Source: a virus. Taken from it: 29,921 nucleotides of DNA. Shown in pieces: positions 17,019-22,961 of this stretch. The DNA is taken from the IMG/VR virus record IMGVR_UViG_3300021961_000424, positions 1 through 29,921 of that record. The stretch is one strand, 5' to 3'. Every line of letters starts with the position of its first letter. Position 1 is the stretch's first letter. A model generated the notes under the pieces. That model was not told the origin of the DNA. It ran no database searches and saw nothing but the letters and a program-made list of their open reading frames with translations. The translations under genes were made by a program, and so were the position numbers.

Positions 17019-18714
17019 AAAGATTCGTTGGAAAAACTTTTTATCAACGGGTAATCAGTATACTGAGATTAATTTTACTAAACATCCAACTAATCTAATC
17101 ATTGGTACAAATGGTGCAGGCAAGAGTACTTTGCTTGATGCTCTTACTTTTGCTCTGTTTGGTAAACCTTTTCGTAAAATTAACAAACCTCAACTTCTAA
17201 ACTCTGTAAATGAAAAGGACTGTAGAGTTGAAGTGGAGTTTTCTATTGGGAACACTAACTGGAAAGTTATTAGGGGAATAAAACCAAATATCTTTGAGAT
17301 TCATCGTGATGACAATCCATTAGATCAATCTTCTGCCGCATTGGACCAACAAAAGTGGTTGGAGCAAAATGTGATCAAGATGAACTATAAGTCTTTTACT
17401 CAGATTGTGATTCTGGGTAGCAGCACTTTTGTACCATTTATGCAACTAACTGCTGCAAATCGTCGTGAAGTGATTGAAGATCTTCTTGATATTAGAATCT
17501 TTTCTTCTATGAACACTTTGATTAAAGAAAAGATTCGTGTTGTAAAGGAAAATATTAAGGTTTTAGAACTTAAGAAAGAGTCCTTGATCGATAAGGTTTC
17601 GATGCAAGAAAACTTTATTGAAGAATTGGAGCAACGTGGAAAAGATAATATTAAAGATAAAGAAGAGAAGATTGAAGATCTTCTTAATGAAGAAAATGAC
17701 TTGATGAATACTTGTCAAGATATGAATCAAGAACTTTCTGGGTTGCAAGAAACTCTTGAAAAGTATACTGGTGCCACAGAAAAACTTCGTAAACTTGGCA
17801 ACTTAAAAGGAAAGATTTCTAATAAAGTATCTACCATTACAAAAGAGCACAAGTTTTTCACAGAGAATACGGTCTGCCCTACCTGTGATCAGTCTATTGA
17901 GGAGTCCTTCAGAATAAATAGGATTAGTGACGCTCAAATTAAAGCAAAGGAGTTGCAATCTGGTTATAAAGAACTGGAGGAGGCAATTAAAGAGGAAGAG
18001 GAACGAGAGCGTCAATTTACAAATTTATCAAAGGAGATTACTTCTTTAACGCATGGCATTTCTAAAAATAATACTAAGATCTCTGGATGTCAAAGACAGG
18101 TCAGGGATTTGGAATCGGAAATTCAAAGAATTACCGAGCAACTTGCAAATAGAAATACTGAGCATGACAAGTTAGCAACTTTTAAAGAAAATTTAAAAAC
18201 TACATACGACGAACTCGCACAAAACAAGGACACCATCAACTACTACGATTTTTCGTATAGTTTGCTTAAAGACGGTGGAGTGAAAACTAAAATTATCAAG
18301 AAGTATCTTCCTCTGATCAATCAACAAGTCAATCGGTATTTACAACTGATGGACTTCTATATCAACTTTACTCTTGATGAAGAGTTTAACGAAACCGTCC
18401 AGTCCCCCATTCATGAAAACTTTTCTTATTCCTCTTTCAGTGAGGGAGAAAAGATGAGAATCGATCTGGCACTCCTCTTCACTTGGCGTGAAGTTGCCAG
18501 AATGAAGAATTCCGTCAATACTAATCTACTTATCATGGATGAGGTGTTTGATAGTTCTCTTGATGGTTTTGGAACAGAAGAGTTTCTAAAAATCATCCGA
18601 TATGTTGTCAAAGATGCAAATATCTTTGTTATCTCTCACAAAGAATCTCTGCATGATAGATTTGCAGATGTGATTCGATTTGAGAAAGTGAAAGGATTCA
18701 GTAGGATGGTTTGA
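17005..18714 (+). CDS. gp46: Recombination nuclease ATPase subunit (Rad50/SbcC-like)
   Basis: gp46 is the SMC-type ATPase of the gp46/gp47 end-resection complex. The 569-residue protein (T4 560) has Walker A GTNGAGKS at 34-41, a Q-loop region around QIVILGSSTFVPFMQL, two long coiled-coil arms (about 180-280 and 300-400), the zinc-hook CPTC at about 291-294, signature SEGEKMR from about 479, and Walker B LLIMDE with D512/E513 followed by the D-loop DSSLDG. All catalytic parts are present. It overlaps DUF3110 upstream, and its stop overlaps the next ATG (TGATG). Confidence 0.97.
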   Translation: MILFEKIRWKNFLSTGNQYTEINFTKHPTNLIIGTNGAGKSTLLDALTFALFGKPFRKINKPQLLNSVNEKDCRVEVEFSIGNTNWKVIRGIKPNIFEIHRDDNPLDQSSAALDQQKWLEQNVIKMNYKSFTQIVILGSSTFVPFMQLTAANRREVIEDLLDIRIFSSMNTLIKEKIRVVKENIKVLELKKESLIDKVSMQENFIEELEQRGKDNIKDKEEKIEDLLNEENDLMNTCQDMNQELSGLQETLEKYTGATEKLRKLGNLKGKISNKVSTITKEHKFFTENTVCPTCDQSIEESFRINRISDAQIKAKELQSGYKELEEAIKEEEERERQFTNLSKEITSLTHGISKNNTKISGCQRQVRDLESEIQRITEQLANRNTEHDKLATFKENLKTTYDELAQNKDTINYYDFSYSLLKDGGVKTKIIKKYLPLINQQVNRYLQLMDFYINFTLDEEFNETVQSPIHENFSYSSFSEGEKMRIDLALLFTWREVARMKNSVNTNLLIMDEVFDSSLDGFGTEEFLKIIRYVVKDANIFVISHKESLHDRFADVIRFEKVKGFSRMV

Positions 18715-19373
18715 TGCCAACTTTTGTTCATAGAGACAGTGGTAAAAGAGTTTTCTTTGCACATATTCCCAGAACGGCAGGAAGGTTTGTAGAAGCAAAT
18801 CTTTTGGAGAATGGTTTTGAGTGGGAAGAAAAGCATCTTGATACTGGTCTTGGTGTAATGTCTGTAGTAAATGGATTTGAGATAGCACACTATCATCGAG
18901 AACACTATCAAAAATATTTGAACGTCTCTGACATTCCTCACTTTTCTATTGTGAGAAATCCTATCAATCGATTTATTTCTGGATCGGTATATCTTAAGAG
19001 AGCATATGGAAATGATATACAATCTGTGATGGAGGATCCAATAATGTTTGCTTCCATGATTCGAAACCTTCCTTTTGATGAGGCATGGAATTGGTATAGA
19101 CCACAAGTTGATTTTCTTACAGATCAAACTAGTATATGGAAATTTGAGGATAAAATAAATCAATCTTTTGTTGAATGGTTAAGTGACGTTGTTGGAGTTA
19201 AGTTGAACTTTAATGATAATATTGAATATCCAAAATCTTCGGATGAGGGAAATAAACTTGACAAGACACCTGCTCTAATAGATAATATTAAGCAACTCTA
19301 TCGTCAGGACATTGGCAAACTCTACCCCGAACTGGCAGCACCACTCCAAGAAGGAGCAAAAACGAAAACTTAA
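18714..19373 (+). CDS. Sulfotransferase-like protein
   Basis: Sulfotransferases move sulfate from PAPS to sugars, lipids or proteins. The 219-residue protein has both cofactor signatures: the 5'-phosphosulfate loop HIPRTAGRF at about 17-25 and the 3'-phosphate motif SIVRNPINRFISG at about 78-90, with the right spacing. The rest of the family fold is shortened, and the acceptor substrate cannot be read from sequence. The ATG at 18714 overlaps the gp46 stop (TGATG); an in-frame TTG lies one codon upstream. It is the last gene of the gp55-47-46 run and unrelated in function to its neighbours, so it is probably an acquired auxiliary gene. Modification of virion or host surface glycans is a guess. 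Confidence 0.8.
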   Translation: MPTFVHRDSGKRVFFAHIPRTAGRFVEANLLENGFEWEEKHLDTGLGVMSVVNGFEIAHYHREHYQKYLNVSDIPHFSIVRNPINRFISGSVYLKRAYGNDIQSVMEDPIMFASMIRNLPFDEAWNWYRPQVDFLTDQTSIWKFEDKINQSFVEWLSDVVGVKLNFNDNIEYPKSSDEGNKLDKTPALIDNIKQLYRQDIGKLYPELAAPLQEGAKTKT

Positions 19374-19462: not shown

Positions 19463-19487
19463 ATAGGTTCATCTGAGACAAACCTAT
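19463..19487 (+). promoter_or_regulatory. Inverted repeat covering the start of the VWA gene
   Basis: ATAGGTT (19463-19469) and AACCTAT (19481-19487) are exact reverse complements, separated by 11 bases. The right arm includes the first two bases of the ATG at 19486. No ribosome site is visible, so a hairpin in the mRNA would hide the start codon. Confidence 0.5.
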
Positions 19488-21609
19488 GGCAGTCAAACAA
19501 GAAATCAAATCCCAACTCGCCAAACTGCTTGCCACTGAGGACTTGATCGTGGAGCACAAGCAGGTTCAAACTGCCTGCTTTAATGTTCACACCCGTGTTC
19601 TGACTCTTCCGATGTGGGAGAAGGCAAGTAATACTGTGTATGACCTCCTGGTGGGTCATGAAGTGGGACATGCTCTCTTCACCCCTGATGAGAACTGGTT
19701 GGAGAAGGTTGCTGTCCCTCCTCAATTCGTGAATGTTGTTGAAGATGCGCGGATTGAGAAACTGATGAAACGCAAGTACATGGGACTTGCTAAGACATTC
19801 TTTACTGGATACAAGGAGTTAAATGACGAAGACTTTTTCTCTATATCTGATGAGTCTGTTGCTAATTTTAATCTTGCTGATCGTGCAAATCTATACTTTA
19901 AGATCGGTAATTTTATAAACCTTGAGTTTACTGAAGATGAACAGGAGATCATTGATCTAATTCAATCTGCAGAAACTTTTGCTGATGTTCTTATTGCTGC
20001 TGAGGAACTGTATAAGTTCTGCAAGAAAAAGCAGGATGAGAAAGTGTCTGATATCACTCCTCCCCCTGAAATGGGTGGGGAATCTGATCAACCTGCCAAT
20101 GAACTGGTGGAAGAGCAGCAGGAGACCACTAGTGAAGGTTCTGGTGACTCTGATCAACAGGAATCTACTCCACAATCTTCTTCTGGTGTTCCTGAAGTTG
20201 CTGGCGAACCTGAGGTTCAAACTGCTGATGCCCTTGAAGATAATCTGCAAGATCTTGTAGATACTAATGGATATGAAAACGTATATGTGGAGATTCCTCA
20301 AGTTGATCTGAATCGTGTGATTGCGAACAATATTGATGTTCATAATGAAATTGATAAGTGGTTTAATCATCAACTTAAATCCACTGAGCATCCAATCTTC
20401 AAAGTTGCTGATGAAGAGTTTGTTAAGTTCAAACGTTCTGCACAGAAAGAAGTAAACTATCTGGTCAAAGAGTTTGAATGCCGCAAGGCAGCAGACTCCT
20501 ATGCCCGTGCCACTACTGCGCGCACTGGTGTTCTGGACTGTACCAAACTCCATACTTACAAGTACAATGAAGATCTATTCAAAAAAGTCTCTGTGATTCC
20601 TGATGGTAAGAATCATGGGTTGATCTTTATTCTTGACTGGAGTGGTTCTATGAGTCGGGTGATGCTTGATACAATCAAGCAACTCTACAATCTGGTTTGG
20701 TTCTGTAAGAAAGTTGCTATTCCCTTTGAGGTTTATGCGTTTACTAATGAATGGAAACGACCAGAGTTTAATCTTGAAACTGGTGACATTATCAAATCCG
20801 TTGATTTGACTCCTTGCTATGAGAAGAAAGAGAATGTTCTTGTCATTGATGAGCATTTTTCTCTGATGAATCTTTTCACCAGCAAAACAAATAATCTGCA
20901 ATTGGAGCATCAAATGATCAACATTTGGCGCATTGCAAAATCATTCGGTGATTATTATCATACTTCTTATTCTGTTCCGACTCGTCTTGGATTGTCTGGT
21001 ACTCCTCTAAACGAAGCACTGCTTTGTCTCCACCAGATTCTCCCTCAGTTCCAGAAACAGAATAAACTACAAAAAGTTCAGTGCATTGTCTTGACCGATG
21101 GTGAGGCAAATCATCTTGGTTATCACAAGGAAGTTAAACGTCATTGGGAAAGTGAACCATACATGGGGACTCGTCATTTGCCTGGTGGTGTTTCTTTTTT
21201 AAGGGATCGTAAACTTGGAACCACATATAAAGTTCCTTATGGTTGGCATGGTTTTACTGATCTGTTGCTTCGTAATTTGCAGGATAATTTCTGCTCTGTA
21301 AACTTTATCGGTATTCGTGTTCTTGAAGGACGTGGTGCAAGTGATTTTATGAAACTTTACTGCGATGATCATAGTAAAGAATTGCTTAAACTTCAAACTG
21401 ATTGGAAAAAGATGCGTAGTTTCACTATTAAAAACTCTGGATACCATGCATACTTTGGACTGTCTTCATCTGCACTCTCTCAAGATACTGAGTTTGATGT
21501 AAAGGGAGATGCAACTAAAGCACAAATTAAGTCTGCTTTTGTTAAGTCTCTCAAAACTAAAAAACTAAATAAGAAAGTTCTTGGTGAGTTCATTTCTTTA
21601 GTAGCATGA
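19486..21609 (+). CDS. HExxH plus VWA domain protein, CobT-like
   Basis: The 707-residue protein has three parts. Residues 1-180 contain HEVGH (58-62) in GHEVGHALFTP, followed about 25 residues later by VEDARIEKL, a layout like zinc metallopeptidases with a downstream Glu ligand. Residues about 190-265 are an acidic, Gln/Ser/Pro-rich linker. The C-terminal half is a VWA domain with a full MIDAS: DWSGS (D384, S386, S388), a Thr in SGTPLNEAL, and D538 in LTDGE. Such proteins partner with MoxR/CobS-type AAA+ ATPases, and one is encoded just downstream. CobT is the chelatase version, but no CobN is present here. Chelation, protein remodelling and proteolysis are all possible; I favour a MoxR/VWA-type chaperone role. 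Confidence 0.85.
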   Translation: MAVKQEIKSQLAKLLATEDLIVEHKQVQTACFNVHTRVLTLPMWEKASNTVYDLLVGHEVGHALFTPDENWLEKVAVPPQFVNVVEDARIEKLMKRKYMGLAKTFFTGYKELNDEDFFSISDESVANFNLADRANLYFKIGNFINLEFTEDEQEIIDLIQSAETFADVLIAAEELYKFCKKKQDEKVSDITPPPEMGGESDQPANELVEEQQETTSEGSGDSDQQESTPQSSSGVPEVAGEPEVQTADALEDNLQDLVDTNGYENVYVEIPQVDLNRVIANNIDVHNEIDKWFNHQLKSTEHPIFKVADEEFVKFKRSAQKEVNYLVKEFECRKAADSYARATTARTGVLDCTKLHTYKYNEDLFKKVSVIPDGKNHGLIFILDWSGSMSRVMLDTIKQLYNLVWFCKKVAIPFEVYAFTNEWKRPEFNLETGDIIKSVDLTPCYEKKENVLVIDEHFSLMNLFTSKTNNLQLEHQMINIWRIAKSFGDYYHTSYSVPTRLGLSGTPLNEALLCLHQILPQFQKQNKLQKVQCIVLTDGEANHLGYHKEVKRHWESEPYMGTRHLPGGVSFLRDRKLGTTYKVPYGWHGFTDLLLRNLQDNFCSVNFIGIRVLEGRGASDFMKLYCDDHSKELLKLQTDWKKMRSFTIKNSGYHAYFGLSSSALSQDTEFDVKGDATKAQIKSAFVKSLKTKKLNKKVLGEFISLVA

Positions 21610-21755
21610 CAATACCAGAATGGAAAAAGAGAGCACTTTCAGATCCCTCTCTTAAGGATAAGCAGGTCCAAGTTCTTCTTCATGGACCTAAGTCTCTAAC
21701 TGATGCCTGGTTTCTTCAGGCGATGAAATACAAGTACGGACGGTTTGGAGACTGA
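21606..21755 (+). CDS. Small 49-residue protein between VWA and AAA+ genes
   Basis: The ATG at 21606 overlaps the VWA gene stop (ATGA), and the frame runs to TGA at 21753-21755. The 49 residues begin MTIPEWKKRALSDPSLKDK and continue with VQVLLHGPKSLTDAWFLQA, then a basic end (MKYKYGRFGD). The ATGA junction and protein-like composition, and its end 5 bases before a terminator, support a real gene. No family is recognised. It could be a small partner of the AAA+/VWA pair. Confidence 0.65.
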   Translation: MTIPEWKKRALSDPSLKDKQVQVLLHGPKSLTDAWFLQAMKYKYGRFGD

Positions 21756-21760
21756 CCACT

Positions 21761-21784
21761 GGGGGCATTAACTGCCCCCTTTTT
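21761..21784 (+). terminator. Terminator between the VWA operon and the CobS-like gene
   Basis: GGGGGCA-TTAAC-TGCCCCC (21761-21779) is a perfect 7-bp GC-rich stem followed by five T. Confidence 0.9.
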
Positions 21785-21788
21785 GCTC

Positions 21789-21794
21789 TATAAT
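21789..21794 (+). promoter_or_regulatory. -10 box (TATAAT) just after terminator, before CobS-like gene
   Basis: A perfect TATAAT begins 5 bases after the terminator T-run. The only -35 candidate is TTAACT (21768-21773), in the terminator loop and first stem base, at a short 15-base spacing. The start would fall near 21801, about 18 bases before the ATG at 21819. Confidence 0.5.
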
Positions 21795-21818
21795 AACTTC
21801 AGTTCAAACAAACAACTA

Positions 21819-22961
21819 ATGCCTCTGTCTGCTGACTACATCCGCACTTCTCTCCAGAGTTTGTATGGAGAGTCTGTGACCTCTGCTGACATTCGTGCTT
21901 GGTGTGCCATGAATGGTGCAAATTACCAAACTGTTACTAACAAACTGACTAATTGTAAGGTTGGTCGCGGTAAGTGGAATTTGGAAGTAACGAAAGAGAC
22001 TGTGGAGGAACTGGAAGTGTCTTATGCTGCTCCTGCTGCCCTTCCAGCAACCGAACAAAACCTTATTCCTGCTAAAGATGATACCTTCGTCAAGTTTGGT
22101 AATTTCAACGATATTAAGAAAATTATTCAGTCCCGTCTATTTTATCCGACGTTCATTACGGGTCTTTCGGGTAATGGTAAAACGTTCTGTGTGGAGCAAG
22201 CATGTGCCCAACTTGAACGTGAACTCATCCGTGTAAACATTACTATTGAAACTGATGAAGATGATCTCATTGGCGGCTTCCGTCTTGTTGACGGTGCCAC
22301 AGTCTGGCATAATGGTCCCGTTGTGGAAGCCCTCCAACGAGGTGCCGTCTTGCTTCTTGACGAAATCGACCTCGCAAGCAACAAAATCCTTTGCCTCCAG
22401 TCAATCCTTGAAGGGAAGGGAGTTTTCCTCAAGAAGATTGGCAAGTTCGTTACGCCCGCCGATGGTTTCCAGATCTTCGCAACGGCAAACACAAAGGGCA
22501 AGGGGAGTGACGACGGTCGATTCATTGGGACTAACGTGCTCAATGAAGCTTTCTTAGAACGTTTTCCTGTAACCTTTGAGCAGGAATATCCTACTGTTAC
22601 TAACGAATATAAGATTCTCTACAAAGTTGCTGCTTCTATTGGAGCATTCAAAGAAACTTCTGATCTTGATTTTCTCAAGCGTCTCTGCGATTGGGCAGAC
22701 ATTATCCGCAAGACCTTTTATGATGGTGGTATTGAGGAAATCATCAGTACTCGTCGTCTAGTTCACATTGTTCGTGCTTATAGCATCTTCAACGATAAGG
22801 CAAAAGCAATCAGTGTTTGTGTCAATCGTTTTGATGATGAAACCAAGCAAGCATTCCTTGAACTTTATGATAAGGTTGATGCTGATTTCGATCTTTCTGC
22901 CACTGGTGAAAAATTCTATGTTGATCAGAAAGAATGTCTTGACTCTCACAACTTCTCTTGA
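21819..22961 (+). CDS. cobS: CobS-like / MoxR-type AAA+ ATPase
   Basis: In cyanophages this gene is usually annotated cobS, after the ATPase subunit of aerobic cobaltochelatase. The 380-residue protein has Walker A GLSGNGKT (115-122), Walker B LLLDEID (178-184), a sensor/arginine region with ATANTKGKGSDDG, and NEAFLERFPV typical of MoxR/CobS ATPases. Residues 1-65 form a separate small helical domain (SADYIRTSLQSLYGESVTSA), not part of the AAA+ core. The ATG at 21819 is chosen because the in-frame TTG at 21783 lies in the terminator T-run. A section at about 22265-22560 has more C-ending codons than the flanks. With the upstream VWA protein it forms an AAA+/VWA pair. Cobalamin synthesis is doubtful without CobN. 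Confidence 0.9.
   Translation: MPLSADYIRTSLQSLYGESVTSADIRAWCAMNGANYQTVTNKLTNCKVGRGKWNLEVTKETVEELEVSYAAPAALPATEQNLIPAKDDTFVKFGNFNDIKKIIQSRLFYPTFITGLSGNGKTFCVEQACAQLERELIRVNITIETDEDDLIGGFRLVDGATVWHNGPVVEALQRGAVLLLDEIDLASNKILCLQSILEGKGVFLKKIGKFVTPADGFQIFATANTKGKGSDDGRFIGTNVLNEAFLERFPVTFEQEYPTVTNEYKILYKVAASIGAFKETSDLDFLKRLCDWADIIRKTFYDGGIEEIISTRRLVHIVRAYSIFNDKAKAISVCVNRFDDETKQAFLELYDKVDADFDLSATGEKFYVDQKECLDSHNFS

Follow-up and report, generated by a model that had tools for sequence, protein, structure and literature searches.

What is the function of the adjoining VWA and AAA+ genes present in nearly every T4-like cyanophage, and long labelled as a vitamin B12 enzyme or as an unexplained "peptidase"? 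The present study takes up this question from one such pair in a 29.9 kb virus contig of a T4-like cyanophage (IMG/VR record IMGVR_UViG_3300021961_000424, positions 1 to 29,921), the whole of which we call the window. The pair consists of a 707-amino-acid VWA protein with an N-terminal, zincin-like HExxH domain (19486..21609, ATG start) and a 392-amino-acid MoxR/CobS-type AAA+ ATPase (21783..22961, TTG start), both on the plus strand. The explanation that we favour, and in which our belief somewhat outweighs our doubt, is that the two proteins together form a remodelling machine of the MoxR AAA+/VWA type, in which the VWA subunit bears a metal-competent, minigluzincin-like HExxH domain, and that this machine probably acts on proteins of DNA transactions.

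The ATPase gene belongs to phrog_249 and cyanophage cluster T4-GC 150, labelled cobS, and the VWA gene to phrog_459, "peptidase" (E 1.5e-271), and cluster T4-GC 146; for the latter the nearest named phage is Synechococcus phage S-SM2, with 75.6% protein identity. Published accounts list cobS as a cyanophage core gene (PMC3037559, PMC2984593), and cobS and cobT as auxiliary metabolic genes whose function in phages was noted to be uncertain (PMC11288001). The cyanophage "peptidase" has been argued to be CobT, with viral CobST hijacking host CobN (Liu et al. 2021, PMC8651126). For group 2.2 jumbo phages, a MoxR-vWA pair that includes a peptidase has been proposed to be a virion-assembly chaperone, and was likened in that proposal to a MoxR-vWA pair reported for a two-tailed archaeal virus (Iyer et al. 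2021, PMC7824862).

Results and discussion

The motifs that the initial annotation had read in the VWA protein are all present. HEVGH occupies residues 58-62 (19657..19671), with H58 and H62 as predicted zinc ligands and E59 as predicted general base, and is followed by N83-V-V-E86-D87-A-R89-I-E91 (19732..19758), in which VEDARIE spans residues 85-91 and E86 is the probable third zinc ligand. The metal ion-dependent adhesion site (MIDAS) of the VWA domain is complete, with DWSGS at 384-388 (D384-S386-S388), T506 and D538. Conservation of these residues was examined in T4-type phages, using for alignment 39 representatives less than 75% identical to one another, with identities down to approximately 21-24%, from cyanophages, Pelagibacter phages, and Ochrobactrum and Pseudoalteromonas phages. 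Only 16 of the first 170 columns were invariant, and these included H58, E59, H62, N83, E86, D87 and R89; the naive chance that four predicted residues would all fall within such columns is approximately 5e-5. H58, E59, H62 and the downstream glutamate did not vary, HExxH and E86-D87 being intact in all 101 T4-type sequences, so that an objection from free variation of the site fails, and the MIDAS was kept in 100 of the 100 sequences that hold the VWA part. When two bacterial relatives were added only 11 columns remained invariant, seven of them in the HExxH/Glu motif. The VWA and ATPase genes are strictly paired, in 463 and 466 phage records respectively, with almost the same breakdown by host. 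Pseudoalteromonas phage XG4 encodes the zincin part and the VWA part by two neighbouring genes whose order is reversed, each with its motif intact, which shows the N-terminal domain to be a separate module; in the same phage (contig L090, 3851-7403) the ATPase is divided between two reading frames. Contigs of several bacterial and archaeal metagenome-assembled genomes (L105-L130) in a species genome collection also hold this phage gene set, and are probably mis-binned phage DNA.

Structure prediction is consistent with a zincin-like domain. The AlphaFold2 model of the whole protein (mean predicted local distance difference test, pLDDT, 81; predicted template modelling score, pTM, 0.73) has an N-terminal domain (residues 1-188, 19486..20049), a disordered, low-complexity linker with pLDDT below 50 that joins it to the rest (189-239, 20050..20202), and then a helical segment (245-360) and the VWA domain (377-707), together at 20218..21606. 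Modelled alone, the N-terminal domain reached pLDDT 91.2 and pTM 0.86, with predicted strands at 21-25, 31-33 and 38-42, an active-site helix at 49-65 that holds HExxH, and a glutamate helix at 79-97 that holds E86, which is the gluzincin layout with both elements invariant. In an unbiased fold search this domain matched almost only zincins, in agreement with Foldseek: jannalysin (Z 7.6, 98 residues, 2.7 Å), abylysin (7.3), ArdC (7.2), HtpX (7.1), selecase (7.0), BepA (6.4), SPRTN (5.9) and Wss1 (5.0), with IrrE/PprI also among the matches. These models support a zincin-like N-terminal domain of the minigluzincin kind with a predicted metal-competent site. The VWA part was closest by VIA-align to the MIDAS domain of Rea1/Midasin (Z 16.0) and to the VWA domain of NorD (Z 15.2), generic VWA domains scoring about 12 or less, and Foldseek ranked NorD VWA chains first; both Midasin/Rea1 and NorD VWA domains work with AAA+ rings. 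The ATPase, with Walker A motif GLSGNGKT at residues 127-134, is an AAA_5 protein by Pfam (63.5 bits, cut-off 22), and thus the window holds an AAA_5 ATPase adjoining a MIDAS-bearing VWA protein of the kind that partners AAA+ rings. Pfam gave no match in the 707-residue protein, a PDB sequence search with this protein or its profile returned nothing useful, and the solved CobT chains 9uka and 21vu were not among the fold matches listed.

Is the pair nonetheless a cobaltochelatase? According to the hijack model the pair is CobS-CobT, joins the CobN of the host, inserts cobalt, and raises cobalamin for ribonucleotide reductase (Liu et al. 2021, PMC8651126). There is a place in the host for such a function, since 38 of 41 Prochlorococcus genomes sampled had a CobN/ChlH-family protein (PF02514), usually in two copies that are presumably CobN and ChlH, while CobT was found in none of the 41. 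There is also distant kinship to CobS and, by way of mobile-element intermediates, to CobT. By every membership test applied, however, the phage pair is no cobaltochelatase. The initial annotation had seen no CobN subunit, and a search for PF02514 in 28 records of carrier phages, 20 of them complete isolate genomes, likewise detected none, with five control genomes positive. The ATPase scored 76.2 bits against the CobS model TIGR01650 (PD_CobS), for which the cut-off is 558.55, and the Pfam CobT models PF06213 (cut-off 26.1) and PF11775 gave nothing for the VWA protein of the window up to E 1, the best value of Pfam CobT among 20 relatives being 0.072. DUF2201_N (PF13203, cut-off 23.2 bits) was likewise rejected as a parent family, with a best E of 0.023 among 20 relatives and no match for the window protein. 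In a FastTree phylogeny of the ATPase canonical CobS formed its own clade (support 0.998) apart from the T4-phage clade; deep joins of mobile-element sequences in this unrooted tree were weak.

The site itself separates the two kinds of protein. Among 31 true chromosomal CobT sequences, taken from proteobacterial genomes and mostly encoded adjoining cobS, none had HExxH upstream of the shared Glu motif, and GHADSV, GTADAL or GLGDSM stood in its place, whereas HExxH was kept in every mobile-element "CobT" examined: HEAAH on the IncC plasmid, HEVGH in the Rhizobium phage, HECYH in ICP2, HEVAH in phage-plasmid SSU5, HEGCH in the Bacteroides phage, HECGH in halovirus HCTV-16 and HEAGH in the Roseobacter phage, as well as in 29 SSU5-type contigs and further proteobacterial loci. 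In a ten-member mobile-element alignment with 21-29% identity the H, E and H were invariant in all ten, and the invariant set consisted of HE..H, N, D, E and the MIDAS/DG.P residues, beyond which there were only G42 and a late Leu; the equivalent of E86 was replaced only in ICP2. The phage N-terminal profile matched this set with 99.8% probability and E 5e-29, HExxH falling on HExxH in register, and the set in turn matched CobT by hhalign (91.4%, E 9e-7), PF06213 matching six and PF11775 nine of the ten members. Phage protein and CobT are therefore distant relatives, but this kinship rests on the intermediates because direct comparison was not significant (6.5% and, by hhalign, 1.1%), and the phage protein belongs to the CobT superfamily only in a wide sense, transitively, through its N-terminal domain. 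A chromosomal protein from a Methylobacter metagenome-assembled genome (L132) matched both the phage N-terminal profile (E 1.6e-13) and Pfam CobT (49.9 bits, above the cut-off) and carries HEAAH...NILEDIRIEK. In these alignments the mobile-element branch has an intact zinc site and the biosynthetic branch a degenerate one, and the change may have run in either direction.

The occurrence of the pair also fits poorly with the hijack model. Relatives with the same site are found on plasmids of E. coli, whose control genomes had no CobN match, and the pair is present in Pelagibacter phages too. SAR11 is not known to synthesize cobalamin; the papers on SAR11 that were consulted do not state directly that CobN is absent. 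With a zinc site invariant in the phage protein and missing from real CobT, we consider the hijack model the least probable of the explanations weighed here. The initial annotation had suggested that a MoxR/VWA machine fits the gene set at least as well as a cobalamin role, and the invariant HExxH, the lack of CobN in the phages, the fold models and the loss of the site in all 31 CobT sequences agree with that suggestion.

A different possibility is that the HExxH residues bind metal without cutting, the pair serving, like NorQD, as a chaperone of metal insertion or of conformation, and its N-terminal domain as anchor and metal site. The MoxR/VWA partners of known role, NorQD and CobST, carry out metal insertion or remodelling with no proteolysis involved (PMC13036017, PMC9976466), and the N-terminal domain of NorD binds to the ATPase, where it works as a lever (PMC13036017). 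Plain metal binding, however, needs no invariant general base E59 alongside both histidines, and true CobT, which is active in metal insertion, has lost the site. We judge this explanation unlikely, if less so than the hijack.

Patterns of gene context bear on the question of the target. In T4-type phages the order is gp47-gp46-[VWA]-[ATPase]-gp45-gp44, Ochrobactrum phage OC included. On the IncC plasmid it is AAA, ssb, bet, exo, DUF3150, VWA and a Toprim protein; in the Methylobacter locus a YqaJ recombinase, AAA, DUF3150 and VWA; and in two other loci DUF3150, VWA and primase. SSU5-type and Rhizobium elements have DNA ligase, VWA, ATPase and DNA polymerase III alpha, and the Bacteroides phage has DNA polymerase, RecA, AAA and VWA. 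ICP2 has VWA, ATPase, primase, helicase and polymerase on one strand, with the structural genes on the opposite strand. In CRP-810 the pair adjoins endonuclease V, and in HCTV-16 a SprT-family metalloprotease and an ERCC4 nuclease lie a few genes away, the metalloprotease gene approximately 1.4 kb upstream of the CobS/CobT-like pair (contig L199, 1-5531). In Synechococcus phage S-CREM2 (L085) the pair has been relocated from the gp46/gp45 position to near a primase and a RecA-like recombinase. On mobile elements of proteobacteria (L168, L169, L170, L194) a DUF3150 gene is a repeated neighbour of the VWA gene, and its product may be a third component, one that is missing from T4-like cyanophages. 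Spread over plasmids is wide: 3138 plasmid records matched the Methylobacter protein, 2720 of them conjugative and 800 over most of its length. Scans of viral contigs seeded with ICP2 and with L132 gave no new relatives.

These contexts have to be set against the proposal that the pair is a machine for virion assembly or maturation, a chaperone pair plus peptidase working on structural proteins (Iyer et al. 2021, PMC7824862). The same architecture was proposed for group 2.2 jumbo phages, and T4-like phages do need maturation proteolysis. A purely virion role is nevertheless argued against because the pair recurs on conjugative plasmids, which have no virion, and the HExxH-VWA/AAA+ set is found also on chromosomal elements without virions. 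The ICP2 pair shares its strand with primase, helicase and polymerase, the structural genes being on the other strand, and the cyanophage pair sits between gp46 and gp45, outside the head and tail clusters. The virion proposal is thus unlikely in our view, while remaining the foremost of the three rivals, and the recurrent neighbours together with the plasmid occurrence suggest DNA-transaction proteins, rather than virion proteins, as targets. The literature consulted yielded no report on the expression timing of the pair.

A mechanism for the remodelling machine can be sketched by analogy with NorQD, in which the pore of the ATPase receives a finger of the VWA domain that rotates against the ring-bound N-terminal domain (PMC13036017). 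The ATPase would form a hexameric ring and the VWA domain would dock in its pore; the MIDAS metal site may grip the target protein, ATP turnover would twist or pull it, and the zincin domain, tethered by the flexible linker, would cut it. The target would most likely be a protein on replicating or recombining DNA, encoded by phage or host.

Several points weigh against this interpretation. The zincin matches have middling Z values, all below 8, so that the fold assignment depends on how consistent the match list is, taken together with the motif; Foldseek E-values for the N-terminal domain were 0.1 or more. Zinc binding, proteolysis, ring assembly and target are all things that we infer, and folds with HExxH can have functions other than proteolysis. 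The link with replication and recombination comes from approximately ten lineages whose gene neighbourhoods were inspected by eye, with no background model for comparison, and in T4-type phages it is inherited synteny; the DNA-repair contexts of HCTV-16 and CRP-810 are weaker, that of the halovirus being the weakest. It is possible to go further and suppose that one ATP-driven metallopeptidase machine, coupled to replication and recombination and built of an AAA+ ring, a MIDAS grip and a zincin blade, is common to phages, conjugative plasmids and haloviruses and clears or processes DNA-bound proteins, as a mobile-element counterpart to the logic of p97 plus SPRTN/Wss1, that CobT is a member with a degenerated zinc site, and that the widespread viral "cobS/cobT auxiliary metabolic gene" label is a misannotation; we regard this whole as doubtful, offering it as speculation.

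The extent of the unit in the window needs one correction. The initial annotation had placed a 49-residue protein and the ATPase after the VWA gene, and the positions were correct, but the 49-residue protein (21606..21755; phrog_869, small cyanophage proteins) is incidental to the pair. It was rejected as a component, its homologues occurring in only 298 of approximately 463 pair-carrying phages and often at a distance, 96 kb from the pair in S-SCSM2R and 8 kb in S-CAM22. Upstream, the VWA gene is separated from the gp46-like gene by a sulfotransferase-like gene (18711-19373; phrog_3347, E 1e-23) that is absent from this position in S-SM2.

The question matters beyond this locus. cobS is counted in viromes as an auxiliary gene of B12 or nucleotide metabolism, and if the pair is a peptidase-bearing machine these ecological readings need revision. 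A widespread phage and plasmid system would then have a testable enzymatic function, and presence or absence of HExxH offers a simple rule separating mobile-element "CobT" from the biosynthetic subunit.

Comparison with known systems

Five known systems resemble the pair in part. CobS/CobT (TIGR01650; PF06213, PF11775) are likewise an AAA+ plus VWA pair, and the CobT N-terminal domain is distantly homologous via intermediates, but CobT is without HExxH, the phages are without CobN, and the phage proteins fall far below the family cut-offs. The minigluzincins abylysin, jannalysin and selecase share a minimal zincin scaffold of three strands, an HExxH helix and a glutamate helix, matched at Z 7.0-7.6 across as many as 98 residues, yet are small stand-alone peptidases, neither fused to VWA nor paired with AAA+. 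SPRTN and Wss1, proteases of DNA-protein crosslinks, carry out DNA-associated proteolysis and in cells have an AAA+ partner. Their likeness to the phage protein is limited to the fold match of the HExxH domain; there is no detectable sequence kinship, their AAA+ partner is unrelated to MoxR, and in the phage protein no DNA-binding module was identified, no test having been aimed at DNA binding. NorQ/NorD, which serve iron insertion into nitric oxide reductase, follow the same MoxR AAA+/VWA logic, with a closely matching VWA domain and, in NorD, the same layout of N-terminal domain, flexible linker and VWA (PMC13036017), but NorD is not described with a peptidase site and its target is a membrane enzyme. 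The same domain architecture is that of the jumbo-phage MoxR-vWA pair (ASV44728/ASV44729), with an AAA+ MoxR partner and a VWA protein fused to an N-terminal metallopeptidase; two stretches of Atu_ph07 (100-195 kb) searched by position did not reach these two proteins. For that pair a role in virion assembly was reported, whereas here the carriers are non-jumbo phages, plasmids and chromosomal elements and the context is replication and recombination. The architecture itself is thus already known (PMC7824862), and what is new is the discriminating HExxH pattern, true CobT having lost the site, the match to the zincin fold, and the spread over plasmids and phages in a shared context of DNA replication, which together favour the peptidase reading.

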